Of a DNA stretch of 64,000 nucleotides, positions 267 through 61,850 are shown piece after piece. The notes under the pieces were generated by a model. That model was not told where the DNA came from and searched no databases. It was given only the letters and a program-made list of their open reading frames with translations. The DNA comes from Mesorhizobium loti R88b (GTDB lineage Bacteria > Pseudomonadota > Alphaproteobacteria > Rhizobiales > Rhizobiaceae): the NCBI RefSeq assembly GCF_013170845.1, contig NZ_CP033367.1, positions 6,511,001 through 6,575,000 of the forward strand, given 5' to 3'. The translations under genes were made by a program, and so were the position numbers. Every line of letters begins with the position of its first letter. Position 1 is the first letter of the stretch.

Positions 267-282
267 CATAACGGAGCAACAC

Positions 283-744: not shown

Positions 745-763
745 AAACAAGGAGGAGCAAGAG

Positions 764-1051: not shown

Positions 1052-1093
1052 TGATCACAAGTGGTCGCGGAAGCTGACGCCTCCGCTCCAGAC

Positions 1094-9339: not shown

Positions 9340-9373
9340 TTTTTATCCTTGGGGCGACAAGCACCATTCTGTC

Positions 9374-9393: not shown

Positions 9394-9462
9394 CAACATA
9401 CGCTGCATGCTCACCATTGTCACGCGACGTTGCCTCGTCGACCGGGGCGCAGCCCTCCAGCG

Positions 9463-41713: not shown

Positions 41714-41789
<76 letters not shown>

Positions 41790-42001
41790 TCCCCTCTTCT
41801 CCCGACAGTCTCTTTCGCCGAAGCCTCTACGCTTCTGTCTCGGCAACTAGCTGAAATCCTTACTGATTTCGGCGCGCAAAGCGCGGATGGTCGGGTTTTG
41901 TGGAATTTCGGCGCAGTTGGTCCAACGAGGCGGGGGGCTGGTATTTTCGGTGGTATTGGAGATGCTGATGGTATCGCTGCAGCCAAATGGAGGTCCCGAA
42001 A

Positions 42002-43246
42002 ATGGCCCTTTCCGACGTAAAATGCCGAAATGCCCGACCCATTTCTAAGCTCGTAAAATTGTCTGACGGTGGCGGGCTCCAGCTTTGGGTGCAGCCTACC
42101 GGATCTCGCCTATGGCGCCTCGCCTATCGTTTTGGCGGCAAACAGAAGCTTCTGGCGTTGGGCAGCTATCCCCTCATCTCCCTCGCTGAGGCACGCGAGG
42201 CGCGCGATGCCGCCAAACGTCTCCTCCTACGTGGCATCGACCCCGCACAGGAGCGTAAGTCGCAAAAGGCTTCGGCGGAGGACACCTTTCGCTCAATCGC
42301 GGAGGACTATGTCGACAAGCTGAAGAAGGAGGGACGTGCCGACCGGACCATCACCAAGGTCAAATGGTTGCTCGACTTTGCCTATCCAACGTTTGGGAAC
42401 AAAAGCGTTCGGGAGATCGATCCGGCCACAATTCTTGTCGCTCTCCGCAGCGTGGAGGTTCGCGGTCGATACGAGTCGGCAAGGCGACTGCGCTCCACCA
42501 TCGGCAGCGTGTTTCGATATGCAATCGCAACCGCACGCGCCGATGTAGATCCGACGATCGCCCTGAGGGGCGCACTGGTCGGTCCGACGGTCACCCCGCG
42601 TGCCGCAGTTACCGATCCTAAGGCCTTGGGAGGCTTGCTGAGGGCGATTAATGCATTTGACGGACAGCCTACCACCCGAGCCGCTCTGAAGCTGATGGCC
42701 CTGCTGTTTCCCCGCCCCGGCGAGCTGCGCGCGGCCGAATGGGACGAGTTCGATTTCGAAAGCGCAGTGTGGAGCATCCCTGAAGGACGCATGAAGATGC
42801 GACGGCCGCACCGCGTACCTCTTTCCAGACAGGCCGTCAGCGTCCTGACCTCACTTAGAGAAATCTCTGATGGTGGAGCACTGGTGTTTCCCAGTGTTCG
42901 GTCGCGTTCGCGTCCGATTTCTGACAACACGCTTAACGCTGCCTTGCGCCGTATGGGCTACGGCAAAGAAGAAGCTACCGCGCATGGTTTTCGAGCAACG
43001 GCATCAACTCTGCTAAACGAATGTGGAAAGTGGCATCCGGACGCCATAGAACGGCAGCTGGCCCACATTGAGAGCAACGACGTTCGTCGGGCCTACGCCC
43101 GGGCGGAGCACTGGGAAGAGCGCATCAAGATGATGCAATGGTGGGCCGATTATCTGGATGAACTCGAGAGCAAAGACGCGGGGGTAATCTCGATTGGGGG
43201 ACACGGCAAATCCACCGTCCATACGCCGTCGCGAGATCTACGTTGA
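42002..43246 (+). CDS. Tyrosine recombinase (P4-type integrase)
   Basis: About 414 residues from MALSDVKCRNARP at 42002, with an in-frame start 15 bp upstream as the alternative. An N-terminal DUF4102-type arm-binding domain (LSDGGGLQLWVQPTGSRLW, GSYPLISLAEAREARDAAK) precedes the SAM-like and catalytic domains. The catalytic residues are all visible: Arg in LFPRPGELRAAEW, HGFRATAST (H-x-x-R), and the C-terminal QLAHIESNDVRRAY with His and nucleophilic Tyr. It should be active and integrates into the adjacent tRNA-Phe gene. Confidence 0.93.
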   Translation: MALSDVKCRNARPISKLVKLSDGGGLQLWVQPTGSRLWRLAYRFGGKQKLLALGSYPLISLAEAREARDAAKRLLLRGIDPAQERKSQKASAEDTFRSIAEDYVDKLKKEGRADRTITKVKWLLDFAYPTFGNKSVREIDPATILVALRSVEVRGRYESARRLRSTIGSVFRYAIATARADVDPTIALRGALVGPTVTPRAAVTDPKALGGLLRAINAFDGQPTTRAALKLMALLFPRPGELRAAEWDEFDFESAVWSIPEGRMKMRRPHRVPLSRQAVSVLTSLREISDGGALVFPSVRSRSRPISDNTLNAALRRMGYGKEEATAHGFRATASTLLNECGKWHPDAIERQLAHIESNDVRRAYARAEHWEERIKMMQWWADYLDELESKDAGVISIGGHGKSTVHTPSRDLR

Positions 43247-43633: not shown

Positions 43634-44791
43634 TTATGTTGCCGCCGTCACTGCTGCCGACGCGGTGGCTGGAATCGGCTCCTCCCATTCCCCGCGTATC
43701 CACAACGAGTGAAGTTCAAAATCGGCAGTTTCAGCATTTTGCTCGGGATCTCCATATACAGCTGTCTCGACATAGGGGATGCCTACGTCAAAGCGGTCGC
43801 TAGAGCCCTTTCCAAACTTATGATCATAACACGCGAGCAACACGCCAATCGAAAGCAGCTTTGATGAGAGAGGCGACACAAACAGCTTACAGCCACCCAT
43901 AGGTTTGAGAGCTTTTTTGTATCGTTCCATGGCCGTAAATATTTGGCGGTAAGCCTCGAACGGATTGTATTCGCTTGCTAGCAAGATGTTTGCCGGCTCC
44001 ACCTTGAAGTCGTCGAACAGAGTGTCACGGTGCTCACCAACCACCTCGTCCCCTCGCCGTGGCTTTCTCGTAGGAAAAGGGATAACCGGGCAAATCTCAT
44101 CCGGGTTCACATGGTCTTGTATGAGATGCAGTCGGTCACGCTGACCCTCACCCAAAACAGGAAACCACACCCGCGGCCAATTCTGAGTAGTCTGCTCTTC
44201 AAGATGTCCGGAGAAGCCAAGGACGAAGGTTACGCTGTCCCTGAGACTGCCTTTTGCCGCGCCGAGATCCGCAGAAACACTCTCGGATGTGGTCACGTGA
44301 AGATTTACGCTTGGGCCGTTGGCTTCGGCCAGCTTATCAAGTTTGAAGAGAAGAACGCTGACAGCGGTAAGTGCCACCATGCGCGGCATAGCGCTGATGT
44401 CGACAATGACATCGTCAAAGTCGCGACAATCTCCCGCTCTGTCCAATGAAGCTTTGGTATTTCGTGGAGTTACAGCAGCGCCTACGGGGCCTCCAATCTC
44501 GATCGGCACTGCAACGATCTTTTCCGCGGGAACGAGTTTCAAGAGTCCTTCGTGGTTGGTCGCCGTGAGTTCCGATCGCTTCGGGCTGTCGCCCAATCCG
44601 TTGTCGAACACCAACTGCCAGACCGATATATCGGCGTCCAGGGCATGCAAGCGTCGAGCAGTTTCAAGAGTTCTGACGTCGAAACCGCGACCAATCACGA
44701 GAAGGACCTTACGCTTCTTGGCCGACAAGCGCCGTCGCCAGAACATGGTGAAATCGGAGTCGAGTGTGAGGGAGTAGGGATCCCATCGCAT
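43634..44791 (-). CDS. Uncharacterised Rossmann-like protein, third gene of the PRTase-ATPase operon
   Basis: About 385 residues (ATG at 44791; a TTG at 44812 overlapping the ATPase stop is an alternative). I recognise no named family. The N-terminal RKVLLVIGRGFDVRT followed by ETARRLHALDADISVWQL is a beta-alpha-beta pattern, and DDVIVDISAMPRMVALT forms a second such unit. A C-terminal segment (CKLFVSPLSSKLLSIGVLLA, VETAVYGDPEQNAE) could be a second Rossmann lobe, faintly like CARF-type domains. It is probably cytoplasmic, with no membrane segment. The overlap with the ATPase gene shows that it belongs to the same system. Confidence 0.72.
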   Translation of the reverse strand: MRWDPYSLTLDSDFTMFWRRRLSAKKRKVLLVIGRGFDVRTLETARRLHALDADISVWQLVFDNGLGDSPKRSELTATNHEGLLKLVPAEKIVAVPIEIGGPVGAAVTPRNTKASLDRAGDCRDFDDVIVDISAMPRMVALTAVSVLLFKLDKLAEANGPSVNLHVTTSESVSADLGAAKGSLRDSVTFVLGFSGHLEEQTTQNWPRVWFPVLGEGQRDRLHLIQDHVNPDEICPVIPFPTRKPRRGDEVVGEHRDTLFDDFKVEPANILLASEYNPFEAYRQIFTAMERYKKALKPMGGCKLFVSPLSSKLLSIGVLLACYDHKFGKGSSDRFDVGIPYVETAVYGDPEQNAETADFELHSLWIRGEWEEPIPATASAAVTAAT

Positions 44792-44804
44792 TGCCGGGCT
44801 CGGA

Positions 44805-46715
44805 CTAGACAAGAGTTGCCTCCTCGGCCACGGCGATTGCCTTCGCTCCTGCTTCTTGCCAGTGAAGCAAGCTCTTCAGTGTTTGATGTCTCCAGCCGCC
44901 GTAACCAAGTGGCAGGCCAAAATGTACGCAGAGAAGACGGTTCAGATAGAACACGACATATTCCCGACCATTATTTCTATGGTCGAGACGTGGCATCAGT
45001 AGGTTATGCGACACGAGAGACGTCATGACGTCTCGAAGTCGAATAAAATGCGAGATTTCAGCGTCCTCGCTGTCAATTATCAGTTTTCGATCGTCCATCG
45101 TGATCGCAATTCCGGTGACGCCGGGTGCGTAGGGGGCGCTGCTTCTGAAAGTCTGTTGGCGGCAGTATTCGCCGATTGCTTCGAGCAGGCGGCGCGCCTC
45201 GACACCACGCGGAAGGCGGCGCGGAAGCCCGTCCCACCGATCCTTCGCAACGCCCCGGATCAGTGCGTCCTGTCGCGCTGCCGTGAGTGGCACCGGCTGA
45301 TCTCGGTGAAACCGGATTTTCGCAGAGATTTCTTCAAACAATGCGCCTGCCACCTCCAGATACTGGTCCACATTGGAGGATGATACGGCGCTCAAAGACT
45401 CACGGCCGAAATAGATTGGCGCTCCCACATCTGTTCGCAGAAAGTGTTCTGCTGCTCGGTCCGTGCCGCTGCCTGATCGTGCTCCGAACTCATCCAATGT
45501 CAATGAATCGAAATCGAAGCTTGTCTGGGTTCGTCTCGTATCTCTTATGACCAGAATTTTGAGCAACTGCCATTTGAAGGCGCGTTCGAGAAGGTTGCCG
45601 CTTAGCCCGCGAGCATTGGCAAGCCAATTCGAATAACGAGGGCCAACGCCGGCCATCTTAACAACTTCGGCCTCGATCTCCGCCGTACGGCCAGTGAGAG
45701 CGGTCTCCAAGCTCGGTATGTCGTCGGTTTCACCAATGAGCGGAAACAGCTCGCGCCCTTCGAAACCATCAGCCTTGGCCGCCCGAAGATTGGCGATCGT
45801 TTCCACAAATTTGGTATAGGACTTGGTTCTTGTTCCAGACCAACGTTCTTCCAGTTGCACGACGTTCTCGTAATCTCGTTTGCGAAGCGCGCCCTCGGAG
45901 AGCAGATCCTTATGCGTAAGAGCCTCTAGCCTTTCAGCGATCCATACTCCGCACTGCTCCCGCGCATTGGTTATGAATTCAATCAGGCTTGCACGCTGTG
46001 GAGGAGCCAGTGTCTGGAGTTCGTCCATGAGAAGGACGCGCTTGACGTCCATATCACCCTGCGCGTCGCTTATGCGAACATGCGCAAACCACTTGAGCCC
46101 GTCCAAGCGCGCGTGCCCACCTTTTATCGACGCAGGCGAACCGAGATCGTCCATTCGATCGTAGAAATCTCGTTCGATGCGCGACGCCCAGGTAAAAAGC
46201 TCCTTTCCTGTAGCGCGGCCCGGAATAGTCGCGTCTGATTCCGGCTCCCATTCGAAGCTGTATTGGTCAAGATCGTCGGGAAATTGACGTTCCGCTCGTT
46301 CCAGCACCGACCTGAGTGTCGCGACCACAATTCGAGAATTCAATAGCTCTCGAAAGAGTATATTGCCGCGGTCAAAGGCACTCAGTTCCTTGTACTCACT
46401 GGTGAAGACGACCATCGCACCAAGCAATTTCGGTCCGTCGCGACCGATGGCGCCCACCTCCCTCAGCGCGTCGCGCGTCGCCTTCACCTGCTGGTGCTGA
46501 TCAGCGAGGTTGTCAGTGAGCTTCAGCGGACGCGGCGTAAGAATACGCAGAAACGTAGTCTTTCCGCCACCAGGTGCACTTCGAAGAAAGACGAGACCGT
46601 TCCAAGGGTCATCGAAGGACTTGATGACCTCCAAAGCACCCACGCCGAAGAGACGAACAAACTCATCGTCACTCGTCGAGCGCTGGGATGCGCGCATTCG
46701 GAATGGATTTCTCAC
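44805..46715 (-). CDS. ORC/CDC6-like AAA ATPase of a conflict-type operon
   Basis: 636 residues from a GTG that directly follows the stop codon of the PRTase gene (an ATG lies 18 bp further). Walker A is SAPGGGKTTFLR near residue 46-57 and Walker B is VLLMDELQTL near 225. The long C-terminal part has helix-rich regions compatible with winged-helix or sensor domains. I place it with the ORC/CDC6-like AAA proteins described, from memory, in biological conflict systems with PRTase-like partners. It would act as the energy-using sensor or assembly core. Codon use is less GC-rich than the flanks. Confidence 0.72.
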   Translation of the reverse strand: MRNPFRMRASQRSTSDDEFVRLFGVGALEVIKSFDDPWNGLVFLRSAPGGGKTTFLRILTPRPLKLTDNLADQHQQVKATRDALREVGAIGRDGPKLLGAMVVFTSEYKELSAFDRGNILFRELLNSRIVVATLRSVLERAERQFPDDLDQYSFEWEPESDATIPGRATGKELFTWASRIERDFYDRMDDLGSPASIKGGHARLDGLKWFAHVRISDAQGDMDVKRVLLMDELQTLAPPQRASLIEFITNAREQCGVWIAERLEALTHKDLLSEGALRKRDYENVVQLEERWSGTRTKSYTKFVETIANLRAAKADGFEGRELFPLIGETDDIPSLETALTGRTAEIEAEVVKMAGVGPRYSNWLANARGLSGNLLERAFKWQLLKILVIRDTRRTQTSFDFDSLTLDEFGARSGSGTDRAAEHFLRTDVGAPIYFGRESLSAVSSSNVDQYLEVAGALFEEISAKIRFHRDQPVPLTAARQDALIRGVAKDRWDGLPRRLPRGVEARRLLEAIGEYCRQQTFRSSAPYAPGVTGIAITMDDRKLIIDSEDAEISHFIRLRDVMTSLVSHNLLMPRLDHRNNGREYVVFYLNRLLCVHFGLPLGYGGWRHQTLKSLLHWQEAGAKAIAVAEEATLV

Positions 46716-47834
46716 CTACTGTAGCTTTCTGTGGCGGCTAACTCTCGGAAACAGGCCACGAACCGATTGGTCGTCCTCTGCCCAGAGCAGATAGATCGAG
46801 TTGTTGGGAGTGTTGTGAGCTAGCACGAGCGGGAGCCTGCAATTCGCGAAACCGTAGCGCTTGCTTGTACCGCCTACTTTAGAATGCTCATCGTCGGCAT
46901 CGTCGTCAAAATATCGATCATCTGCGACGAGCCCCAGGATTGGGCTGTCGCTTGCATCATCGAGCGGCGTCGTTTCGCCCAGTTTGTGAACCACCTCGAA
47001 CTCGACTGTGCCCTTGCCGAAGGTCAACTTGGGCAAACGGCTTTCAATGTGCTCGATTGCCTGATCGCCGGCGACATAGAGAATGATGATTATCTTGACG
47101 CCGGAATTCGCTATCGCGTCTCCAAGGTTTCCTGCTTTCATTAAGCCGCTAACGATCTTCGCTATCTTCCCGGTCCATCCACCTTGCCCATCCTCTCGAA
47201 TGAAACTCGTACCACTGCCAGTGAAATCATCGAGCAGTACGATGTACCGGAACCGGGCCTCATGATCGTGGGGTTCTCGACCCAAGATCTTCGTTAGGTG
47301 CTTCCGAAGGTCTTGGACCATGCCCTCGCTTTTCGGATCCGAAACGTCATAGGCATGAAAGACTTGCTCATTGGACATCTCTTGCGGATTCGCGCGACGA
47401 AACCAGTCTGTTCGCGCACCGTCGCTCAGGCCTAGGACCAGTGTCTGGCGAAGTCGAGTTCGATACTCCACCGTGTCGACGATTGCCTTCACTTTATGTG
47501 GATCGACCCCAAGTTCGGTCGCAGTGTCAGCGATTAGGATTGGGCGAATGATCGTCGGGAAGGTAAGCTCCACCAGATGATTCATTTCATCTGTGGATAT
47601 GAAAAGCAGCCTCTTTCGCACGAAGTTGTAAGCCTCGCGACGCTCTTCACCCCCGGTGAACTGCCCAAGCCAGAGCGCCAGACTCTCGATGAACCGTTTG
47701 CCTGGCGAGAACTGCTGATATTCGTCGTATTTGTAACTGGCAAAGCTTTCGAGATAAGCGCGTTCCGCTGCCTTTTCCTCGTCAGACCATTCCATGATTT
47801 TTGCCAGCAGGCTTTCCGCCAAATCCTTCCTCAT
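46716..47834 (-). CDS. PRTase-like protein (conflict-system type)
   Basis: 372 residues from ATG at 47834, preceded by GGGGAG; a GTG at 47852 is an alternative. The central YIVLLDDFTGSGTSFIRE is a phosphoribosyltransferase PRPP-loop motif (hydrophobic strand, Asp-Asp, then TGSGTS). A helical N-terminal region of about 180 residues precedes it and a C-terminal region with acidic DDDADDEHS follows. It should bind a 5-phosphoribosyl-type ligand. The operon and this PRTase class recall the conflict-associated PRTase families; the reaction is unknown. The stop codon abuts the ATPase start. Confidence 0.7.
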   Translation of the reverse strand: MRKDLAESLLAKIMEWSDEEKAAERAYLESFASYKYDEYQQFSPGKRFIESLALWLGQFTGGEERREAYNFVRKRLLFISTDEMNHLVELTFPTIIRPILIADTATELGVDPHKVKAIVDTVEYRTRLRQTLVLGLSDGARTDWFRRANPQEMSNEQVFHAYDVSDPKSEGMVQDLRKHLTKILGREPHDHEARFRYIVLLDDFTGSGTSFIREDGQGGWTGKIAKIVSGLMKAGNLGDAIANSGVKIIIILYVAGDQAIEHIESRLPKLTFGKGTVEFEVVHKLGETTPLDDASDSPILGLVADDRYFDDDADDEHSKVGGTSKRYGFANCRLPLVLAHNTPNNSIYLLWAEDDQSVRGLFPRVSRHRKLQ

Positions 47835-47937
47835 CAGAACTCCCCATGACACCTCTACCCGACCGCAGCGATATACCGCAGGGAGGAGTGCGTTCGTCCA
47901 GCGAAATCAACCTGGTCCTTACCTTAATTCACGGGAT

Positions 47938-48297
47938 TCACTTGCGGGTGATTTCGCCAACCGCAGCTATGACTTTTGCAAGCCGCTCCGCACCGGCCGG
48001 TGTATTATCCCAAGCACGCCGAATTGAGCGCTCCAGCTTTGCCCAGTTCGGATCGGATGCGTGCCGACTGCGTTTCCATGTCGTTCCTTCACCCTGCGTA
48101 TTTTGCAGCCCGAGGGTCGTGCAAATTCGCACGACGCTCGCTCCGAACGTAATGAATTGCCCCCGACAAATACGCGAAACTTGGCTAGCGTCGACATCAG
48201 CAATGTCAGCCAGTTCCGCGTAAGAAAGGCCTGCTTCTAAGCGCTTTTCATTGATATGGCGGACCAACTCCGCCCTTTCAATTTGCTTCGGCTTCAT
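47938..48297 (-). CDS. XRE-family helix-turn-helix regulator of the island operon
   Basis: About 119 residues from ATG at 48297 (MKPKQIERAELV); an ATG at 48309 lies inside the operator. The HTH is seen as LSYAELADIADVDASQVSRI, near residues 25-45. The C-terminal part (LERSIRRAWDNTPAGAERLAK) is helical. It is first in the leftward operon. A 12+12 bp inverted repeat directly at its start and at the NADAR start suggests that it represses both directions. Confidence 0.82.
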   Translation of the reverse strand: MKPKQIERAELVRHINEKRLEAGLSYAELADIADVDASQVSRICRGQFITFGASVVRICTTLGLQNTQGEGTTWKRSRHASDPNWAKLERSIRRAWDNTPAGAERLAKVIAAVGEITRK

Positions 48298-48331
48298 GTA
48301 AATTTGCATGCACTAAACGATGCAAATTTAC
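48298..48331. promoter_or_regulatory. 12-bp inverted-repeat operator between the XRE and NADAR genes
   Basis: GTAAATTTGCAT at 48298-48309 and ATGCAAATTTAC at 48320-48331 are perfect inverted repeats separated by 10 bp. The site touches the XRE start and lies just before the NADAR ribosome-binding site (GGAG at 48335-48338). Symmetry, length and place fit binding by the XRE dimer. Confidence 0.82.
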
Positions 48332-48344
48332 AATGGAGTTTTTC

Positions 48345-48830
48345 GTGACGGATGTTGGCCAGGAAATCCGGTTCTATCGTGCCAGCGAGAAGCCTTACGG
48401 GGCCTTCAGCAATCTATTCCGGCGCGAGATTGAATTCGAAGGCGAGCGCTTTGCGACGAGCGAGCACGCCTATCAGGCCGGCAAGGCGCGTAAGCCGGAA
48501 GTCAAAGCATGGCTTATGGCGGCACCGTCTCCCGCGCTTCTGGCGATGGCGGCGCACGGGCTATATTACTGGGATGTCAGCCCAGGCTGGTCACGGACAA
48601 AGTTTGACAGGATGAGGTGCGTGCTCCGAGCCAAGTTCACTCAGCATGAAGATCTTCGCGAATTGCTGGTATCGACGGGCTCAGCTCGACTGATTGAAAC
48701 TGCGACCGTCGACAATGAGGTGAATCGGCTCTGGGGAGAGGTGAATGGTCAGGGTCGCAATATGCTTGGAGAGCTACTGATGGAACTCCGTGCAAAGCTT
48801 CAGAACGACGACGTCTCGAAGGCGGCGTAA
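48345..48830 (+). CDS. NADAR-family protein
   Basis: 161 residues from GTG at 48345, chosen because GGAG lies 6 bases before it; the ATG at 48333 would put the start inside the control element without a ribosome-binding site. The NADAR signatures are FYRASEKPYGAFSNLF, FATSEHAYQAGKA and LWGEVNGQGRNMLGELLMEL. NADAR proteins cleave N-glycosidic bonds of ribosyl compounds, and some remove ADP-ribose from nucleic acids in toxin-antitoxin pairs. No DarT-type toxin is seen here. It is divergent from the XRE gene and convergent with the PfkB gene. Confidence 0.85.
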   Translation: MTDVGQEIRFYRASEKPYGAFSNLFRREIEFEGERFATSEHAYQAGKARKPEVKAWLMAAPSPALLAMAAHGLYYWDVSPGWSRTKFDRMRCVLRAKFTQHEDLRELLVSTGSARLIETATVDNEVNRLWGEVNGQGRNMLGELLMELRAKLQNDDVSKAA

Positions 48831-48868
48831 GAAGAGCCAATGCAAATCTGAAACTGCCGACATCGGGT

Positions 48869-49777
48869 TTACCCCCGCAAGACAGACCGCGCGTATTCTG
48901 CACCACGCTCGCGGAAGATGCCGCGAGCACCGACATAGGCGCAGTTCTCGGCAGCCAGGCGTTGTCCAGCTTCGATTCCGACAACGAATTCGTCAATTGA
49001 AATCTTCCGGGTCGCGCGGTCGCGGCGGCTCAGCAGCCAATCAATCACGCCAACGCTTACCATATCGCCAGAACCACAGGTGTCGCGCAATTCGGGCGCC
49101 GGGTAGGATTTGCACCACGCCTTCTCAGCTCCCCGTCGTACCTCCAGACCAGCTTCTCCGTGCGTCACGATTAGGAAAAGGGCGTCGTGGGGGGCGACCT
49201 GCCCCGCCAGTGTTGCCAGACGCTCTGCTGAGAACTTGAGAACGGACGCTGCAGCGACTGCGCGTCTGAAAAGCTCTTTATCGCCAAGCGCGGATGGCTC
49301 GAAATAGACGGTGGACCCTGCGTCGGCCGCAGCTTCCATCGCATCGACGATCGCTCCGGATAATCGATCCGTATAGAAGACATTGCAGTTCTTGATCGCC
49401 GGCAGAGCCCGGCTCACATCTTCCCAGTCTATCGGCTCATATCGCGGAAGATCGATGGAAGTTTCTGGACACCTAAATTCGAATGTATGTACCCCGGGCC
49501 CATGCAGACGCTGAGCAAGGATCGGCGAGCGGATGTGTTCTGTTTGTCGGATGTATCGCGTCTCGGCTCCCGCGTGCCGGAATGCGACCACAAGACGGAT
49601 GCCAACCTCGTCTTCACCGAGGCTCAACACCGGCGCCACATTCCGCTGAAGCATGGCGAGCGAAATCAAAACGTTCCCGCAAGAGCCACCAAGATCCTCG
49701 GACGACACCGCCAACGAGTCCGCGTAGATGCGGTCGAGAACAGTAAATCCTGTGCCGACCACGTCGACTGCACTCAT
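48869..49777 (-). CDS. PfkB/ribokinase-family sugar kinase in the island
   Basis: About 302 residues from ATG at 49777 with GGGAGAG before it; an ATG at 49828, 1 bp after the SIS-HAD stop, is an alternative. The fold is PfkB: LGGSCGNVLISLAMLQRN near the N-terminus and DTCGSGDMVSVGVIDWLL with the catalytic Asp near residue 240. It would phosphorylate a sugar or nucleoside with ATP. It is tightly coupled to the SIS-HAD gene upstream, so their substrates are probably related. The specific sugar is unknown. Confidence 0.83.
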   Translation of the reverse strand: MSAVDVVGTGFTVLDRIYADSLAVSSEDLGGSCGNVLISLAMLQRNVAPVLSLGEDEVGIRLVVAFRHAGAETRYIRQTEHIRSPILAQRLHGPGVHTFEFRCPETSIDLPRYEPIDWEDVSRALPAIKNCNVFYTDRLSGAIVDAMEAAADAGSTVYFEPSALGDKELFRRAVAAASVLKFSAERLATLAGQVAPHDALFLIVTHGEAGLEVRRGAEKAWCKSYPAPELRDTCGSGDMVSVGVIDWLLSRRDRATRKISIDEFVVGIEAGQRLAAENCAYVGARGIFRERGAEYARSVLRG

Positions 49778-49829
49778 CGGACTCTCCCGGTCATAAGCTG
49801 GCCCACTCTGTTTTTTCTCGGTCACCATT

Positions 49830-51761
49830 TCAAGAGTGCTGATCGAGGGTCAGAGCAGAAAGATCAATCATCATTTCGCATCCCTTCGCACGAGCGGCCT
49901 GCAAAATGCGCAGGAGAGCATCCGGACCTCGCAACTTTGATCCAAACAGCGTCCAAGCGCCGCCTGAAGCGCCGCAAACACTGCCAACGCTTAGACAATG
50001 CGGTCCGGATAATAGCTCCCGATCATTTCCCAATGGCGAGCCACTATCTCCGATGCCGAGAACGGCCTTGCTCGCATCGCCGGATCGACGGGCGAGCTCC
50101 TCTACAACGCGGAGCTTTGACGTAGATGCCAAGACGATATCGACGCTATGGTGAGATCTCAGCACCTTCACGCTACCTTCGACTATCTGAGGGCAAGCAG
50201 CCAAGCCATCCGCAAAACGCTCGACGTCGATGACATCGGCACAGTCAATCGACACCTGAATTGGACGCGTCTTGATCTCGACTCCGTCGCGAAGCAGGCC
50301 TGAGCCCGTTAGCCACCGGGTAACCTCGGCAATGTTCGGATTTCGTTGCGGGGGGTCCTCAGCTATGTCGACGTCGAGCGTTCGAATGTGGGCGCCGTTA
50401 TAATAACCCATGAGGACATTTCTATGTATCCGCTTCGGAAGGGCGTCTCGCAATTTTTCGCCAGCGGAGCCGCCGCGTCCTGTCGCAAAGCCCACCTGGA
50501 TGCCGTCATCAACAAGCCTGACCAGTTCGTGCATAATCGCTTTGGGAGGAGGACCGAGCCGGGCTTCACGCGGATCGTTCGGGACGACCGTCCCATCATA
50601 ATCGAGCGCGAGACCGACAAAGCTCGCGCCCCCCAAACTAAGCAGCCTCTCTCGCCCAACGGAACAAAGTGATGCTGATCGCTCATCGATAGGATCAAAG
50701 TACATCCGCGCGGACGTCTTGTGTCGAACCGATGAAGTCAAATCTCGCGAAAGCGTGTCGAGCGCGGGATTGTCATATATCGCCTCGGCAAACGCGCCTC
50801 TCCCCGGGCGTCCCGGATCGATACTCGTAGCGTTTCCGAGGTGCTGAACGAAGGATAGACCCCACAAAATGCTGACCGCGTTGGCCAATCGGCCACCGTG
50901 ATCGAACTCAGCATCTTGAATCCTGGTCTGGGAAGGAAGTGCTGCACGGATGGGCTTCCAAACATCGCCACTTTCCGCGGTTGTCAAAGCCAGCACGTAC
51001 ATGGTCTCTGGATGCTTCGCCGCCCAAACATGACGACCGTGAGCGAAGTTTCTGAAATCAGTCCTCTGTACTGGCGCTATTCCGGTCTCCCAAAGAGAAG
51101 TTTCAATCAACGTTGCAGCTGCTGCGTTTTGCGGATCGTGCAGAACGAACAGAGTATCCCCAACCTGGAAATCGAAGTCTGGGCTTTGAGGTGCACTTAG
51201 CACCTCTTCCGCGCGCTTTCGGAGTTCTTCGGCCAATCTCCCGCGTTGCGGCTGCTCAGTGGTGAGATCTGACGCCATCAACAAGGCGGTCACCATCGAA
51301 ATCATTGAATGCGTCGCTAGAAACCCATCCTTGGGATCGGCAACTGGCGTAACAATCACTTTGGCGCGAGGACTATTTGAGGCCACAATGGTTGTCGCGC
51401 CTTCCGATTGAACTGTCATCAACTGGAGCGATTTGCAGCTGGATGCATTTGCGACACGGAAGGCTGCCGCGATGTCAGGATTGTTCGCTCCGGCGCTGAA
51501 CAGCCAGATATCGCATCCATCCCAATTTTCCATCGATAGGACGAACTGCATGGGTGTCATCACCATCGTCGGACCCAATTGCAATGTTGTCCGGCACCGC
51601 GAGAAGAATTCTGCTGTAACTACGGATCCCCCCGAGGCAATAGCGACGGCGAGCCGTCCTTTCCCTTGTGAAAGAGCGAAAGCAATGTCGCCAGCTCCGT
51701 GCGCGCTCGCCAACTCGATTGTCTCAGGCAACCGGCGCAATTTTTCGGAGAAGACAGTCAT
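49830..51761 (-). CDS. SIS-domain and HAD-phosphatase fusion protein in the island
   Basis: 643 residues. The N-terminal 350 residues hold two sugar-isomerase (SIS) lobes: AVAIASGGSVVTAEFF and LFSAGANNPDIAAAF in the first, and the repeat LFVLHDPQNAAAATLIETSL in the second. The C-terminal 260 residues are a HAD phosphatase: motif I LALDYDGTVVPND near 385, FATGRGG as motif II and VLGIGDSGSPLGND as the acidic motif IV. Each half would bind a phosphosugar. The fusion followed by a PfkB kinase suggests a cycle of phosphorylation, isomerisation and dephosphorylation. It is a cytoplasmic protein with lower GC codon use. Confidence 0.82.
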   Translation of the reverse strand: MTVFSEKLRRLPETIELASAHGAGDIAFALSQGKGRLAVAIASGGSVVTAEFFSRCRTTLQLGPTMVMTPMQFVLSMENWDGCDIWLFSAGANNPDIAAAFRVANASSCKSLQLMTVQSEGATTIVASNSPRAKVIVTPVADPKDGFLATHSMISMVTALLMASDLTTEQPQRGRLAEELRKRAEEVLSAPQSPDFDFQVGDTLFVLHDPQNAAAATLIETSLWETGIAPVQRTDFRNFAHGRHVWAAKHPETMYVLALTTAESGDVWKPIRAALPSQTRIQDAEFDHGGRLANAVSILWGLSFVQHLGNATSIDPGRPGRGAFAEAIYDNPALDTLSRDLTSSVRHKTSARMYFDPIDERSASLCSVGRERLLSLGGASFVGLALDYDGTVVPNDPREARLGPPPKAIMHELVRLVDDGIQVGFATGRGGSAGEKLRDALPKRIHRNVLMGYYNGAHIRTLDVDIAEDPPQRNPNIAEVTRWLTGSGLLRDGVEIKTRPIQVSIDCADVIDVERFADGLAACPQIVEGSVKVLRSHHSVDIVLASTSKLRVVEELARRSGDASKAVLGIGDSGSPLGNDRELLSGPHCLSVGSVCGASGGAWTLFGSKLRGPDALLRILQAARAKGCEMMIDLSALTLDQHS

Positions 51762-52681: not shown

Positions 52682-52861
52682 CGTCGCATAACTGCGCCTA
52701 TAGTGTTGCCGATGCCCTTGTCACTCCCACGAGTCCAGCCGCGGATAGATTGGGAACCGAAACAATCCGCAGAAATATTTTGGTATCTATGTTGGTAGCG
52801 CTGCCGCTGCGCAAATCACAACTATTTGGAAACAAAGAATCTTCTTGGACCGGATTGGGCC

Positions 52862-53050
52862 TCTGACGGTGGCGGGCTCCAGTTTTGGATGCAGTCCTCC
52901 GGATCCCGCCTATGCCGCCTCACCTATCGATTTGAAGGCAAGCAGAAACTTCTGCCGCTAGACAGCTATCTTCTCATTTCTCTCGCCGAGGTACGCCAAG
53001 CCCGCGATGCCGCAAAGCGCCTGCTGCTGGTTGGCATCGACCCGGCACGA
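52862..53050 (+). pseudogene. N-terminal stub of a second tyrosine integrase
   Basis: About 63 codons (SDGGGLQFWMQSSGSRLCRL, then GKQKLLPLDSYLLISLAEVR and RDAAKRLLLVGIDPA) parallel the N-terminal domain of the island's integrase but with many substitutions, so it is a different integrase and not a recent copy. The catalytic domain is absent. It is 60 bp from the ccoS stop codon, so it marks the right edge of the inserted DNA. Confidence 0.82.
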
Positions 53051-53110
53051 TCGTTATTCCGAGTCGGCTGAGGGCCGGCGTCAGCACAGCGTCGGGAATA
53101 GCGCTCTGGC

Positions 53111-53260
53111 TCAGCGTTCCGGCTTGTCGTCCCGGAGGATGCGCTCAGCGGCTCCGTCAAGATCCTCATATTGGCCACTCTTCAACGCCCACAGAAAGCC
53201 AGTCAGCCCCAGTGCGCCAAGAAATAGGGCGACTGGCATGAGGTAGACGAGTATCGTCAT
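53111..53260 (-). CDS. fixS: cbb3 oxidase assembly protein CcoS/FixS
   Basis: 49 residues, too short for many gene finders: MTILVYLMPVALFLGALGLT, then the GFLWALKSGQYEDLDGAAER motif typical of FixS, ending DDKPER. One membrane helix, followed by a short cytoplasmic tail. It is needed for haem and copper insertion into the cbb3 oxidase in model organisms. Its start overlaps the fixI stop (ATGA). It ends 50-60 bp from the island's integrase stub. Confidence 0.93.
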   Translation of the reverse strand: MTILVYLMPVALFLGALGLTGFLWALKSGQYEDLDGAAERILRDDKPER

Positions 53261-55539
53261 GATGACCGCGCTGATGGGTGAATGCCGGAATGTGTTGCCG
53301 AAGAAGCCCTCGTCAGCTCGGCGAGCATAAAGCCCTGCAGCCGCAGCCCGTTTCCGATCACCAGCAGCGATGAGGCGGACATCGCGACCGCCGCGACCAA
53401 CGGCGTGACGTTGCCGAAGATGGCGATCGGCACGGCAACGGCGTTGTAGATGATCGCGATGGCTATGTTCTGGCGGATAAGCCGCCCTGCCTTCCGCGAG
53501 ACGTCCAGCGCAAGGGTTACTGCCGAAAGGCTTTCACGCAGGAACACGAAATCAGCCGCGTTGCGACCAATATCGGCGGCGGTGGCTGGAGCGATCGAGA
53601 CGTGCGCAGCGCCCAGCGCTGGCGTGTCGTTGAGCCCGTCGCCCACCATCAGGACCTTGTGGCCGGCTTTGGTCAGCACTTCGATCCGCTCAACCTTCCC
53701 GGACGGCAGCAGCGCCGGAACAAAACGGTCGATGCCCAATATTCTTGCGACATCGCCACAGGCGTCCGCGGTATCGCCCGACAGCATTTCGACCGCGACC
53801 CCTGCATCGTTCAATTGCGCCATGACGCTCCCGGCATCGGCCTGCAACGCATCCTCGAAAGCGAAGGAAGCGACAATCATCCTGTTCTTCGTCAGAACCG
53901 TGCCGTAGCCATGTTTGCCTTCGCCGCCGGTTCGAGCCTTCCATCCAGCCCATCCGCGTCGACCGAGCCGCCAGGTGCTGTCCGCGGTTGTGGCTTCGAT
54001 CCCGAAACCGGGGTGCTCGCTGACGGCCTCCAATTTCGGTTGACCGACAAAATTCGCGAAACCGGCTATGGCCTTTGAGAACGGGTGGCGGGAGTGCGCG
54101 GCCATGTCGGCTGCGATCGCCAGCATCGTCGGATCGATCGACGACGCATTGACCAGTCGGGGCTGGCCGAGCGTGAGCGTTCCGGTCTTGTCGAACACCG
54201 CTGTATCAATCGTCGCCAGGCGCTCCATGGCCGAACCATCCTTGACCATGATGCCGTTTTCGAACAGGCGCCGCGCGGCGACTACCTGCACGATCGGCAC
54301 GGCGAGGCCGAGTGCGCATGGGCATGTGATGATGAGAACGGCGATGGCGATGGTTATCGCCCGGTGCCAGTCGCCGGTCGCCGCCATCCAGCCAAGGAAC
54401 GTCGCGAAGGCTGTGAGATGAACCACCGGGGCATAGAGCCCTGAAACGCGATCGGCGATCCGGCGATAATGCGCGCGGCCGCCCTCTGCGGCTTCCATGA
54501 GCCGAACCATTTCCGCCAGAAACGAATCTTTCGCGGCGGCTGTGGCCTCAATCGTCAGCGAGCCGGTCAGGTTGAGGACACCGGCCTGCACGGCTTCACC
54601 TGCCGCCACGTTTCGAGGCGTGCTCTCGCCGGAAACCAGCGAGCAGTCGAGATCCGAGGCCCCTTGAATGATCTTGCCGTCGACGGGGATTCTTTCGCCG
54701 GCCCCGATCAACAGCAGCATGCCGGGTTCGATCTCGCCAACCGGCAGATAGTCGCGCGCGCCGTCGCCGCGCAGCACCATGGCGCCACGTGCGGCCAACT
54801 GGGACAGGCCTTTCACGGCGGTCCGGGCCCGCTCGCGCATCACGTGATCCAACGTGCGACCGATCAACAGGAAAAACAGCAGCGAAACCGACGCGTCGAA
54901 ATAGGCGTGATCGCCGTGGTTGATCGTCTCATAGAGGCTCATGGCATAGGCGAGGGACACTCCGACCGCGATCGGAACATCCATGTTCATGCGGCCGTGA
55001 CGCAGCGCGTTCCAGGCCGAGCGGAAGAAGATGCCGCCGGCGAAGGCCAGTGCCGGGATCGCAATCAGCGCCGAGACCCAATGAAACAGGTCCCGCGTTG
55101 CGCCTTCGGCGCCGGACCAGACCGAGACCGAAAGCAGCATGATGTTGCCGGCGGCGAAGCCGGCGACCGCGACCGCGCGGATCAGCTCGGCAAGCGTCTT
55201 GTCCTTTTCATCGATCTCGGCGGCGAAAAGGTGCGCCTGATAGCCCAGCCTTCCCAGCGCGGCGACGAAGGGTGGCACCTCGTCGCCACGCCACCGGATC
55301 GCGACCCGTTTCGTCGACAGGTTGACACGCGCGCCTTCGACATTGTCGAGCTTTGCCAGCGCCGTCTCGATCGTCTGGATGCAGGCCGCGCAGTGAACCG
55401 TCGGCACTGAAAGGTCGGTCTGCCAAAGATTGTCGCCAAGCGACCGGCTCGCCAACCTGATCTCCTGGCTAGACGGCAGGACCGATGTGGTACCGGTCAG
55501 ATCCAGCGCCAGTTCCGCGCTGGGTGCACAACAGCTCAT
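53257..55539 (-). CDS. fixI: Cation-transporting P1B ATPase for cbb3 oxidase assembly
   Basis: 760 residues. The N-terminal metal-binding motif VHCAACIQT (CxxC) precedes eight membrane helices with CPCALGLAVP as the metal-translocation motif, DKTGTLTLGQ as the phosphorylation site, HSRHPFSKA as the His-Pro site and GDGLNDTPALG at the hinge. It is the CcoI/FixI type, which exports copper for the cbb3 copper site. Overlaps by 4 bp with fixH and fixS support coupled translation. Confidence 0.96.
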   Translation of the reverse strand: MSCCAPSAELALDLTGTTSVLPSSQEIRLASRSLGDNLWQTDLSVPTVHCAACIQTIETALAKLDNVEGARVNLSTKRVAIRWRGDEVPPFVAALGRLGYQAHLFAAEIDEKDKTLAELIRAVAVAGFAAGNIMLLSVSVWSGAEGATRDLFHWVSALIAIPALAFAGGIFFRSAWNALRHGRMNMDVPIAVGVSLAYAMSLYETINHGDHAYFDASVSLLFFLLIGRTLDHVMRERARTAVKGLSQLAARGAMVLRGDGARDYLPVGEIEPGMLLLIGAGERIPVDGKIIQGASDLDCSLVSGESTPRNVAAGEAVQAGVLNLTGSLTIEATAAAKDSFLAEMVRLMEAAEGGRAHYRRIADRVSGLYAPVVHLTAFATFLGWMAATGDWHRAITIAIAVLIITCPCALGLAVPIVQVVAARRLFENGIMVKDGSAMERLATIDTAVFDKTGTLTLGQPRLVNASSIDPTMLAIAADMAAHSRHPFSKAIAGFANFVGQPKLEAVSEHPGFGIEATTADSTWRLGRRGWAGWKARTGGEGKHGYGTVLTKNRMIVASFAFEDALQADAGSVMAQLNDAGVAVEMLSGDTADACGDVARILGIDRFVPALLPSGKVERIEVLTKAGHKVLMVGDGLNDTPALGAAHVSIAPATAADIGRNAADFVFLRESLSAVTLALDVSRKAGRLIRQNIAIAIIYNAVAVPIAIFGNVTPLVAAVAMSASSLLVIGNGLRLQGFMLAELTRASSATHSGIHPSARSS

Positions 55540-56033
55540 TGCAGCGCTCCTTGCGAAATTATGATCCGGCGAACGTCGCGATAGGGCTCCGCGAGACCGA
55601 CGTCGGCATCGACTTCGACGATCCAGACGCCATCCTTGGGCACGTCCCGTGCTGCAAACTCCTGAGCCGAAGCAAGGGTAAGAGTGACGGACTTGTCCTC
55701 GGCCTCATAAGCGGGATGGCGAAACAGTATCTTGACGCCATGCAAGGGGACCGGCTTGCCGGTGGTATCGCTCAAGCTGTAGCGGACCTCACCCCGAGCG
55801 ATCGTCAGTTTGCCGGTCCAGCCGAGTGCCGCCTGCGCGCGCCCTTCCTCGGCCTTTCGGTTGAATTGCTGGCTGGCCACATAGGTGTTCTCGACGACAA
55901 GGCCGGTCCAGCTCGTGCTGGCGAGTGTCGCCATCGTGAGATTGACCGCGATGATCACGCCGAAAAAGCCGAGAATGGTGAGCAGCATGTGCCTGCCGGT
56001 GAACTCACGCGTCTTTTGCGTATTGGTGCTCAT
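55536..56033 (-). CDS. fixH: cbb3 oxidase accessory protein FixH
   Basis: 165 residues with an N-terminal membrane helix (GRHMLLTILGFFGVIIAVNL, then TMATLA) and a periplasmic beta domain ending DVGLAEPYRDVRRIIIS. It is the FixH/CcoH type that stabilises the maturing oxidase. Start and stop each overlap neighbours by 4 bp. Confidence 0.93.
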   Translation of the reverse strand: MSTNTQKTREFTGRHMLLTILGFFGVIIAVNLTMATLASTSWTGLVVENTYVASQQFNRKAEEGRAQAALGWTGKLTIARGEVRYSLSDTTGKPVPLHGVKILFRHPAYEAEDKSVTLTLASAQEFAARDVPKDGVWIVEVDADVGLAEPYRDVRRIIISQGALQ

Positions 56034-57601
56034 CTGGCGATCTCCGGGGCGTTGAAGGTGGCGGTGTATTCGTCCGATTCGAAGCTCGCTCTGTCCTCGA
56101 CGCGGAACTTGAAGGTTTGTGCAGCGTGCCGAACCTCACCCGCTGGCTGGCGCACGAAGACCTTCAGCATGTTTAGCCGGTCGGGTTCGACCGCGATGGC
56201 GAAGAAGCGAGCTGCCGGCAGATCACTGCCGACGACGCTCATTTCGGCTCCCTGCAAGCCCTGCATCGTGACGACGATCGTCCTTGGCTCGGGGATCATG
56301 TTAAGCAGCTTGACGGTGTAACCGTTGCGGATCGAGCCGTCGGACAGGGTCACGAATTGCGGATTGCGGTCGTGCAGGACGTTGATCTCGAGTCGGTCGC
56401 GCGTCAGCAGCGAATAGATCAAGGCAAGCCCGACCGCCGTCCACGCGCCCATGTAGAAGAAGGTCCTCGGCCGGAAGATCTTGCGAATATGGAAATGCGC
56501 CAACCTGGCGGAGAATGTGCTGTCGGCCGTTCTGACGAGTGAAGGGTTCACGGGACCGGAGCCGCCTGCGGTCGCCACCGCCATGTTGGCGTTGTAGTCG
56601 GACAGCGTCGCATAGGAGATCAGCCCGCGCTCCTTGCCGAGCTTGTTCATGACGCCATCGCAGGCATCAAGGCACAGCGCGCAAGTGATGCATTCGAGTT
56701 GCTGGCCGTCGCGAATGTCGATCCCCATCGGGCAGACTGCGACACAGGCATTGCAGTCGACGCAGTCACCGACCGGCTGCCCCGCAGCCTGGACCTTCTT
56801 GGCGTGCCGCGAACGAGGTTCGCCACGCCAGTCATTGTAGGTCACAGTGAGCGAATTCTCGTCGAGCATGGCAGCCTGGATGCGCGGCCACGGGCACATG
56901 TAGGTGCAGACTTGCTCGCGCATCAGCCCGCCGAACGTGTAGGTGGTCGCCGTCAGCACCGCGATGGTGACGTAGGCGACCGAAGCGGCGGTGCCGTTGA
57001 ATACGTCGCCGATCAGCGTCGGCGCATCGGCGAAATAGAGGATCCAGGCGCCGCCGGTAGCTGCCGCTATGACCAGCCAGATGACGTGTTTCGACACACG
57101 CAGCACCAGTTTGCGCGCGGTCCAGCGGCCGGCGTCGAGCTTCATGCGAGCGTTGCGATCGCCTTCGATCGCCCGCTCGACAACTAGGAAAAGATCGACC
57201 CATACCGTCTGCGGGCAGGTATAGCCGCACCAGGCGCGGGCGACGGTGGACGTGATCAGGAAGAGGCCGATGCCGGCCATCATCAGAAGGCCGGCGACAT
57301 AGTAGAATTCCTGCGGCCATATCTCGATGAAGAAGACGTAGAAACGGCGGTTGGCAAGATCGATCAGCACGGCCTGATCAGGAGCAAACGGACCTCGATC
57401 CCAGCGCAACCAGGGCATCAGATAATAGATGCCCAGCGTGATCGCCATCACCAGCCATTTGAAGCGGCGAAAGCTGCCCGAGGCGCGTTTAGGGAAGATT
57501 TTCTTGCGCGGAGCATAGAGCGGCTGTCGTGTCTTGGCGGAGTTGACCGCTTTTGCCTCGAGCCGCTCCATCTGCGTTTTATCCAGCACGTGCATCTCCA
57601 C
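56030..57601 (-). CDS. fixG: cbb3 oxidase accessory ferredoxin-type membrane protein FixG
   Basis: 523 residues. Several membrane helices flank a ferredoxin domain with two 4Fe-4S motifs, CVDCNACVAVCPMGIDI and CITCALCLDACD. The C-terminal 150 residues form an Ig-like periplasmic domain. An electron-transfer protein needed for copper delivery to the cbb3 oxidase (CcoG). It starts after a 197-bp gap that carries two hairpins. Confidence 0.95.
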   Translation of the reverse strand: MEMHVLDKTQMERLEAKAVNSAKTRQPLYAPRKKIFPKRASGSFRRFKWLVMAITLGIYYLMPWLRWDRGPFAPDQAVLIDLANRRFYVFFIEIWPQEFYYVAGLLMMAGIGLFLITSTVARAWCGYTCPQTVWVDLFLVVERAIEGDRNARMKLDAGRWTARKLVLRVSKHVIWLVIAAATGGAWILYFADAPTLIGDVFNGTAASVAYVTIAVLTATTYTFGGLMREQVCTYMCPWPRIQAAMLDENSLTVTYNDWRGEPRSRHAKKVQAAGQPVGDCVDCNACVAVCPMGIDIRDGQQLECITCALCLDACDGVMNKLGKERGLISYATLSDYNANMAVATAGGSGPVNPSLVRTADSTFSARLAHFHIRKIFRPRTFFYMGAWTAVGLALIYSLLTRDRLEINVLHDRNPQFVTLSDGSIRNGYTVKLLNMIPEPRTIVVTMQGLQGAEMSVVGSDLPAARFFAIAVEPDRLNMLKVFVRQPAGEVRHAAQTFKFRVEDRASFESDEYTATFNAPEIAR

Positions 57602-57736
57602 TCGCGCGCGGCCTATGACATCGTTGTGCGACGGACTTGTCTGCTTCGACAGACGTCCGGTCTGCAGTGAGCCCGCTTCGCCGTGTGGGCCGCGCCGCCT
57701 TGCTGCAGGTCAATCGCCGCATGCCGGAATGGTGTC

Positions 57737-57806
57737 GGGGCCCGACTCGTGCCGGGCCCCGTCGCTTGGCGGGGAGGGCCGAGAATAGGCTTCCGTTCCT
57801 ATTCTC
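57737..57806. terminator. Two hairpins between fixP and fixG
   Basis: GGGGCCCG at 57737-57744 pairs with CGGGCCCC at 57753-57760. GAGAATAGG at 57781-57789 pairs with CCTATTCTC at 57798-57806, overlapping the fixP stop codon. Neither has a T run after it on the minus strand. They may limit read-through and so lower fixGHIS relative to fixNOQP. Confidence 0.55.
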
Positions 57807-58662
57807 CGCCGCCAAGCGAATGGACATAAACCGCAAGTTCCTTAACCTTCGTCTCGCCGAGACGCCCGATCCAGGCCGGCATGACACCGTGCTTCGGCGC
57901 GCGGACTTGGACGGCGATGGCTGTCTCGCCGGGTGCGTAGAGCCAGATCGCATCGGTCAGATTGGGCGCGCCGAGCTCTTTGTTGCCTTTCGCATTATCG
58001 CCATGACAGGCGACGCAGTTTTCCACGAATACCTTGGCGCCGGGCTCGATAAGACTTGCATCCTGGACCTTGCCCGAGAGGCTGGCGACATAGGCGCCGA
58101 CCTGTGCGATCTGTTCGGGCGTGATGATGTCACCGAAAGGGGGCATTTCCGACTGCCGAGTATCCGGGTCGGATGCGAAACGGATGCCGTGCGCGATCGT
58201 TTGCTGGATCTGCTCGGTCGTGCCGCCCCACAGCCAGTCATCGTCGTTCAGGTTTGGAAAGCCCTTCGACCCTTGGGCGCCCGAGCCGTGGCATTGCACG
58301 CAATTGACCTTGAAGGTAGCTCCGCCGGCCGCTATCGCGAATTCACGCAGCGCGTCGTCGGCTGCAATCTCGGATACGGTCTTCTGCTGGATGGCCGCGA
58401 CATATTTGCCCTTGGCGGCTTCGGCAGCCGCCAGCTCAATCTTGACAGCGTTGCGGCTGGAATAGCCAAGCACACCCTTGGTCGCGGAAGACAGCATCGG
58501 CCAAGCCGGATACGCAATTGTATAAGCCACCGCCCAAGCGACGGTGATGTAGAAGGTTATCACCCACCATCGGGGCAATGGGGTGTTGAGCTCCCTTATC
58601 CCGTCCCATTCATGACCGGTCGTTGAGATGCCCGAGACTTCATCGATATACTCGCTGCTCAT
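57799..58662 (-). CDS. fixP: cbb3 cytochrome oxidase subunit III, dihaem cytochrome c
   Basis: 287 residues with an N-terminal membrane anchor and two c-type haem sites, CVQCHG near residue 128 and CVACHG near 212, each followed by a Met-ligand region. It passes electrons from the bc1 complex via cytochrome c to FixO and FixN. The N-terminal EVSGISTTGHEWDGIRELN, with PLPRWW, is the CcoP signature. It starts 2 bp after fixQ. Confidence 0.96.
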   Translation of the reverse strand: MSSEYIDEVSGISTTGHEWDGIRELNTPLPRWWVITFYITVAWAVAYTIAYPAWPMLSSATKGVLGYSSRNAVKIELAAAEAAKGKYVAAIQQKTVSEIAADDALREFAIAAGGATFKVNCVQCHGSGAQGSKGFPNLNDDDWLWGGTTEQIQQTIAHGIRFASDPDTRQSEMPPFGDIITPEQIAQVGAYVASLSGKVQDASLIEPGAKVFVENCVACHGDNAKGNKELGAPNLTDAIWLYAPGETAIAVQVRAPKHGVMPAWIGRLGETKVKELAVYVHSLGGGE

Positions 58663-58664
58663 GA

Positions 58665-58814
58665 TCAGTCGTCCTTGAGTGGAATCTGGGCGGCTTGATC
58701 GGCCTGTGTTTTGCCGCCGGGACGCAAGGCAAAGGCAATGCAGCCGACGAAGAAGAGCGCCATGGCAAGCAGACCCCAGCTGTCCGCGAATTCCCGCATC
58801 AAATTATAGCTCAT
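58665..58814 (-). CDS. fixQ: cbb3 oxidase small subunit FixQ
   Basis: 49 residues from ATG at 58814 (MSYNLMREFADSWGLLAMAL), one membrane helix ending in a basic, acidic tail. A longer open frame upstream overlaps fixO and is not used. It helps hold FixP to the core complex. Its length and position between fixO and fixP are those of ccoQ genes. Confidence 0.93.
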   Translation of the reverse strand: MSYNLMREFADSWGLLAMALFFVGCIAFALRPGGKTQADQAAQIPLKDD

Positions 58815-58824
58815 TGCGTCCCCC

Positions 58825-59556: not shown

Positions 59557-59567
59557 TGTCTGGCTCC

Positions 59568-61178: not shown

Positions 61179-61257
61179 GACATGTCCCCGACCAGGATTC
61201 CAATGCGCGGACGCCAAATCCGCGGTGCATTAATTCCGTAGTTGCCGCCTGCTCGCC

Positions 61258-61271
61258 CTGATCCATGTCAG
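61258..61271. promoter_or_regulatory. FixK/Fnr-type box between fixN and the hemerythrin-like gene
   Basis: On the minus strand the sequence is CTGAC-ATGG-ATCAG, a near-perfect dyad with the TGAC-N4-ATCA core of CRP/FNR-family sites (consensus TTGAT-N4-ATCAA). It lies 80-93 bp upstream of fixN and about 60 bp upstream of the divergent gene. The same half-sites occur upstream of hemN. Confidence 0.65.
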
Positions 61272-61328
61272 AGCCGCACGATTTTGCTTCGGGCAGCATC
61301 GAGTTCGGTGCAATCAGAAGGTGGCGAT

Positions 61329-61847: not shown

Positions 61848-61850
61848 GTC

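Follow-up and report, generated by a model that had tools for sequence, protein, structure and literature searches.

A widely spread but rare mobile cassette of PRTase, ORC-like ATPase, CARF and sugar-phosphate enzyme genes in Mesorhizobium loti, with a probable role in defence

A cassette of seven genes occupies positions 43634–51761 of the 64,000-nucleotide stretch of Mesorhizobium loti R88b DNA analyzed here (contig NZ_CP033367.1, positions 6,511,001 to 6,575,000; hereafter the window). It consists of a trio of genes, encoding a phosphoribosyltransferase (PRTase), an ORC-CDC6-like ATPase and a CARF protein, together with HTH, NADAR, PfkB and SIS-HAD genes. The cassette is real, widely spread but rare, and mobile; its protein families, conserved catalytic residues, gene association across phyla and mobile carriers are established by computation. 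A role in defence or conflict is likely, and the chance that it serves defence through the PRTase as effector is about even. An earlier note had proposed the trio as a conflict or immune system. That role is supported by the mobile carriers and by the PRTase-CE family, which the cassette has in common with the DS32 anti-phage pair and with retron-type effectors, but the unit extends beyond the trio.

The trio comprises three minus-strand, co-translated genes (43634–47834), an arrangement that the open reading frames (ORFs) of the window confirm: the TAG stop of the PRTase gene (46718–46716) is directly followed by the GTG start of the ATPase gene (46715), and the TTG start of the third gene (44812) overlaps the stop of the ATPase gene, which ends at 44805. 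The ATG at 47834 agrees with the start of the PRTase in most aligned relatives; its longest ORF opens at GTG 47852, from which the residues are numbered. The PRTase (46716–47834, minus strand), a predicted effector, matches the PRTase-CE family PF24390 with 77 bits (cut-off 27), and the ORC-CDC6-like AAA+ ATPase (44805–46715, minus strand), a predicted switch, matches PF24389 with 68.8 bits (cut-off 27). The PRPP-loop (LLDDFTGSGTS), Walker A (GGGKTTF) and Walker B (LLMDEL) motifs pointed out earlier are thus far above chance. The assignment of the first gene holds by both profile and fold, with the PRPP-binding Asp-Asp loop in place and phosphoribosyl transfer predicted from sequence, and that of the second gene holds by profile. 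Comparisons with solved structures were unconvincing for the PRTase (one match by sequence search, E 1.5; three by profile search, E 0.05–0.97), for the ATPase (by sequence and profile searches) and for the third protein by sequence search (two matches, E 0.34 and 1.3).

The third protein (43634–44812, minus strand) matches PADLOC CARF6 over residues 8–377 (E 1.2e-109), and hmmscan of its 392 residues found zero Pfam matches. It is a CARF protein by profile and by fold, and is predicted to bind a nucleotide ligand. The fold call rests on the VIA alignment and not on the top rows of Foldseek itself, in which the model was placed with chloride-cotransporter domains (rmsd about 19) and CARF proteins came at ranks 12 and 13. 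The third protein, in which the earlier note saw two Rossmann-like units (with DISAMPR), is thus not an unspecified Rossmann protein; a plain Rossmann enzyme was rejected on the CARF profile and fold. Because of this fold, the protein is a probable ligand sensor.

The HTH gene (47938–48309, minus strand) encodes a Cro/C1-type helix-turn-helix protein, the predicted repressor of the cassette (PF13560, 30.4 bits, and PF01381, 27.1 bits, above cut-offs). Divergent from it, on the plus strand, is the gene of a NADAR (YbiA-type) N-glycosidase (48333–48830), a predicted eraser (PF08719, 87.7 bits, cut-off 35.1; TIGR02464, 79 bits, cut-off 73.7), whose profile matches the Escherichia coli YbiA structure 2b3w at E 4.7e-25. 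The PfkB-family sugar kinase (48869–49828, minus strand; PF00294, 45.6 bits, cut-off 25.8) matches by profile the fructokinase structure 5ey7 (E 3.5e-20). The SIS-HAD protein (49830–51761, minus strand) joins a phosphosugar isomerase-like domain to a HAD-IIB phosphatase (PF08282, 24.5 bits, cut-off 20.9), and its profile matches the HAD structure 4qjb (E 2.3e-8) and the SIS protein 2aml (E 3.6e-6). When 20 SIS-HAD proteins were compared with Pfam (E ≤0.01), the HAD model was reached by all 20 and the SIS model by three.

A scan of a species-genome collection with the CARF alignment yielded 27 loci. In 22 of these, the PRTase, ATPase and CARF genes occur with SIS-HAD and PfkB genes; four loci end at a contig edge, and the remaining locus is an isolated CARF fragment. 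The gene order of the window (SIS-HAD, PfkB, divergent NADAR, HTH, PRTase, ATPase, CARF) is found in 8/27 loci, and the order SIS-HAD, PRTase, ATPase, CARF, PfkB in 14/27. A plasmid search gave 18 records, of which 15 were examined (H8, H10 and H12 were left out): 13 loci are complete, one is decayed and one is a fragment, and five of the complete loci are on plasmids typed as conjugative (L033, L035, L040, L108, L109). The cassette is also carried by two viral contigs found by a search with the PRTase alignment. The 37 complete loci counted below are these 22, 13 and two; left out were the window (the same DNA as L001), L098 (on the contig of L014), four loci at contig ends (L003, L009, L011, L025), three fragments (L018, L099, L112) and the decayed L111. 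Because the 37 include near-copies (L036/L037/L040 and L013/L019/L108), counts over them are not independent events, and because the loci were found via CARF or PRTase matches, both proteins are present in all of them by choice.

With these limits, the PRTase, ATPase, CARF and SIS-HAD genes are present in 37/37 complete loci and the PfkB gene in 35/37, and all five core genes stand together in 35/37. The three genes of the trio are real, but SIS-HAD and PfkB belong to the unit too, and the window adds NADAR and HTH; the unit is therefore not a trio. The loci are distributed over Pseudomonadota (Alphaproteobacteria and, in L039, Betaproteobacteria), Actinomycetota (L035), Bacillota and Bacteroidota, in addition to the two viral contigs. 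Conservation of the Asp-Asp and Walker residues, a check suggested by the earlier note, is complete: PRTase Asp208-Asp209 of the PRPP loop, ATPase Lys52 (Walker A) and Asp231 (Walker B) are each found in 37/37. The same holds for CARF Asp45, Asp138 and Ser140, for Asp387 and Asp389 of the HAD domain, and for Ser43-Gly44-Gly45 and Asp235, Arg237 and His241 of the SIS domain. PfkB Gly252, Gly254 and Asp255 are conserved in 35/35, and all 16 NADAR proteins retain the SEHAYQAGK block with Lys51, which we take to be the catalytic residue. Cys120 is also invariant in the 35 PfkB kinases, and 22 of them have a second cysteine three residues on, resembling a small metal knuckle.

Several loci have further features. 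In L032, a single SIS-HAD/PfkB/NADAR set is accompanied by two trios, the second of them divergent (13315–17571); L033 likewise has a second, divergent trio (1–3079), truncated where the stretch ends but with at least its ATPase and CARF genes. The PRTase gene next to NADAR in L033 is split across two ORFs. A gene annotated as RHE_PE00001 family protein is near the cassette in four rhizobial plasmid loci (L032, L033, L037, L110). The viral contig of L105, which by eye has Mu-like transposition genes, holds the complete five-gene core (8081–15357). The CARF protein was found in 0 of 50,697 phage records, and of the 53 pattern stretches from viral contigs, the CARF alignment confirmed none. Within the class, CARF6 is patchy, occurring in just 3/385 genomes, and a housekeeping role for the trio is unsupported.

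Within the locus stretches examined, NADAR was found in 16/37 cassettes and NUDIX in 4/37, never together. The NUDIX gene is located directly 5′ of SIS-HAD in its four loci, all from Bacillota (L023, L024, L026, L027). NADAR lies between PfkB and HTH, or 5′ of SIS-HAD and in its orientation (L032, L038, L106), or at the cassette end, following PfkB (L039, L109, L110), and both cassettes that lack PfkB (L038, L106) have it. On a quick tree of the ORC proteins, with long branches flagged, the presence of NADAR needs five changes, at least four of them forced by well supported branches. The mutual exclusion of NADAR and NUDIX, as if they were alternative degraders, is consistent with a rather unlikely explanation in which the PRTase, SIS-HAD and PfkB enzymes synthesize a nucleoside- or sugar-nucleotide-like messenger that is received by the CARF protein and degraded by NADAR or NUDIX, with the ORC-like ATPase as executor or regulator. 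The CARF fold and the biosynthetic character of PRTase, HAD and sugar kinase enzymes also fit this explanation, as does the Ter stress system, for which excerpts of PMC7824862 describe the making of a nucleotide-like signal by PRTases and HAD enzymes. Against it, PRTase–NADAR pairs also occur as two genes with no adjoining CARF receptor, and the PRTase of type III retrons is a presumed effector (PMC12548924, PMC9122126, both in part).

Such pairs recur outside the cassette. PRTase-CE and NADAR ORFs overlap, with the other cassette genes absent, in L089 and L090 as well as in two viral contigs (L103, L104), and NADAR lies 1–5 bp 3′ of the PRTase gene in all three plasmid relatives of the L089 PRTase. 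By eye, the overlapping genes of L089, L103 and L104 lie within a type I restriction-modification-like locus, in which the NADAR ORF seems to continue into specificity-subunit-like sequence. In 337 genomes of the class, three of 11 above-cut-off PRTase-CE genes have NADAR within 2 kb, for an expectation of about 0.001 (genomes of 2–3 Mb); one of the three is that of the window genome, and P is about 3e-7 to 6e-7 when this genome is excluded. Four of the 11 (L092–L095) have reverse-transcriptase-like neighbours by eye, as in retrons. The L089 PRTase matched two viral contigs, was absent from phage records and had no E. coli match as DNA; for the L102 pair, the NADAR part alone matched as DNA, in 62 of 5426 E. 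coli genomes.

The pairing bears on a second, improbable explanation, that of a PRTase toxin with a NADAR antitoxin, retained chiefly because the two help to maintain the mobile element. Plasmid and integrative-element carriers speak for it. NADARs are N-glycosidases acting on riboflavin intermediates and guanine-ADP-ribose, and they serve as antitoxins of ADP-ribosyltransferases, according to the available parts of PMC11125620 and PMC9503650 (for the toxin link, PMC11125620). However, an antitoxin should always be present, and NADAR was not found in 21/37 cassettes; among 14 genomes with NADAR-less cassettes, 10 show no above-cut-off NADAR at all and four have one elsewhere. NADAR is therefore not an obligatory antidote, and the presence of CARF and ORC in all 37 loci suggests signal-gated activation. 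A NADAR elsewhere is more frequent in these genomes (4/14) than in the class sample (19/337; Fisher P 0.009), the taxa of the two samples being different, and the window genome itself has a second NADAR outside the cassette.

Among the closest known systems is DS32 (NCBIfam NF053875 and NF053876), a two-gene anti-phage pair that shares with the cassette adjacent PRTase-CE (PF24390) and NADAR (PF08719) genes. The four scanned pairs (L090, L100, L101, L102) all pass both the DS32_1 and DS32_2 cut-offs. Unlike the cassette, DS32 pairs are without SIS-HAD, PfkB, ORC or CARF genes in the stretches examined. The window proteins are not DS32 members, as both fail the NCBIfam cut-offs: the score of NADAR for DS32_2 is 63.5 (cut-off 240), and the PRTase has no DS32_1 match at E up to 1. 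From its name, NCBIfam DS32 would correspond to DS-32 of the DefensePredictor paper (PMC13092281), the text of which contains neither "DS-32" nor "DS32". In its accessible parts, PRTase and NADAR are among the validated or predicted defence domains, and no mention of the seven-gene cassette was found.

Retron type III-A PRTase effectors belong to a PRTase family in common with the cassette (PADLOC PRTase_III-A, PDLC02935, E 1e-13), but the reverse transcriptase and the winged-helix gene of retrons are both missing from the cassette; its seven proteins have no Pfam reverse transcriptase match, and a retron type III-A assignment was rejected on this ground. The DprA-PRTase anti-phage system of P2-like phages similarly combines a PRTase, the proposed effector, with a separate sensor, as proposed for the cassette, the sensor being DprA in that system and, by prediction, CARF in the cassette; the PRTases are likened by general type (parts of PMC9122126). 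In a pair from Bacillota (L096), a PF24390 gene (162.6 bits) lies next to a PF24389 gene (361.6 bits) as in the cassette, but the third gene is different (304 amino acids, no above-cut-off Pfam family), and no SIS-HAD, PfkB or CARF6 match is nearby. The earlier view of the system as undescribed is uncontradicted by the open-access literature searched, in which neither a description of the whole cassette nor experiments on it were found, but its separate parts are already named in Pfam and PADLOC. The parts and one sub-pair (PRTase–NADAR) are thus already known.

The CARF protein also invites comparison with type III CRISPR, whose CARF proteins (Can2, Card1, Csa3, Csm6) differ from that of the cassette, in whose 392 residues Pfam recognizes no fusion to a nuclease, deaminase or DNA-binding domain. 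The window genome is without an above-cut-off Cas10-palm match: two PF22335 matches score 23.7 and 22.1 bits, below the cut-off of 27. A type III CRISPR module is accordingly unsupported, and CBASS is likewise unsupported, as the window genome has no match to the SMODS nucleotidyltransferase family (PF18144). Across the 30 genomes searched, which include at least one genome counted twice (G091 and G398, with the same matches), SMODS is above cut-off in seven and Cas10 palm in three, one of these matches being strong and the other two marginal.

The setting of the cassette is that of a mobile element. The window and M. loti CJ3Sym (L001) share 13,099 bases with zero differences, from the first base of a tRNA-Phe gene (41714) through position 54812, and identity falls to 93.9% over the 8.1 kb to the left of the tRNA gene, a boundary that ICEMlSymR7A would be expected to give. 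The tRNA-Phe gene is followed by a tyrosine integrase gene (41714–43246), the edge of a mobile element, and L001 has the same tRNA-Phe and integrase. CJ3Sym arose when ICEMlSymR7A was transferred during a mating in the laboratory (PMC4572658, in part), and this element integrates through IntS at the 3′ end of tRNA-Phe (PMC8627217, in part). From the identity boundary and this literature, the cassette very probably sits at the integrase end of an ICEMlSymR7A-type symbiosis element, the near end of which was examined. The GC content is 54.7–56.9% in the cassette vs 62.7% left of tRNA-Phe. No direct repeat of the tRNA-Phe region of 14 or more bases was found within the window, and the window integrase as a query matched 1045 plasmid records, too common to be informative. 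A remnant of a second integrase gene at 52826–53071 has 82% identity over 187 bases to the intact integrase gene at 42062–42248 (via L001). Integrase genes, one intact and one broken, thus flank the cassette, which may have come in as a separate unit. Beyond it (53257–62606), ORFs resembling cbb3 oxidase, fixGHI and Fnr genes were seen by eye.

On these grounds, a tentative scheme of immune phosphoribosylation is proposed. The CARF protein would bind a nucleotide-like ligand, formed by neither Cas10 nor CBASS, that rises on invasion, and the ORC-like ATPase would pass this signal on and thereby switch on the PRTase. In infection, the PRTase would take 5-phosphoribose from PRPP and attach it to a target (nucleic acid, nucleotide, metabolite or protein) at an amine or base, in a manner analogous to the use of ADP-ribose by DarT enzymes; this PRPP-based counterpart of ADP-ribosylation is a possible, though doubtful, analogy. 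NADAR, as an optional component, would hydrolyze the N-glycosidic phosphoribosyl bond and so undo the modification in host cells. SIS-HAD and PfkB would process sugar phosphates, at a guess for substrate supply or product clearance, and the HTH protein would repress the cassette. The parts differ in probability: the chance that the PRTase is the effector is slightly better than even, the action of NADAR on its product is evenly balanced, and all steps holding together is possible but on the doubtful side, as is the writing and erasing of a phosphoribosyl mark under CARF–ORC control. Several results weigh against this reading: NADAR was not found in 21/37 cassettes, the window genome has no above-cut-off Cas10-palm or SMODS source of a CARF ligand, the window NADAR and PRTase fall outside DS32, and the phage records gave no match.

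PfkB kinases and SIS deglycases act jointly on Amadori compounds. An operon that breaks down or repairs a phosphorylated sugar adduct (e.g., of the Amadori type), with a regulatory sensor and no part in defence, would fit SIS-HAD, PfkB, PRTase and NADAR, all of sugar-phosphate, PRPP or N-glycoside enzyme types. This explanation is very unlikely, given CARF and ORC in 37/37 loci, the patchy occurrence in 3/385 class genomes, and the PRTase-CE family shared by the cassette and DS32.

For the scheme of immune phosphoribosylation, the presence of the cassette on an element shared with the sequenced laboratory transconjugant CJ3Sym, of a harmless legume symbiont, makes it directly testable. In retrons and the DprA-PRTase system, PRTases are presumed effectors whose mechanism is not known (PMC9122126, in part). 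The CARF sensor, with no above-cut-off Cas10 or SMODS source in the window genome, may lead to a new immune signal, and the repeated pairing of PRTase and NADAR suggests a testable chemistry, in which a PRPP-derived N-glycosidic mark would be made and removed.
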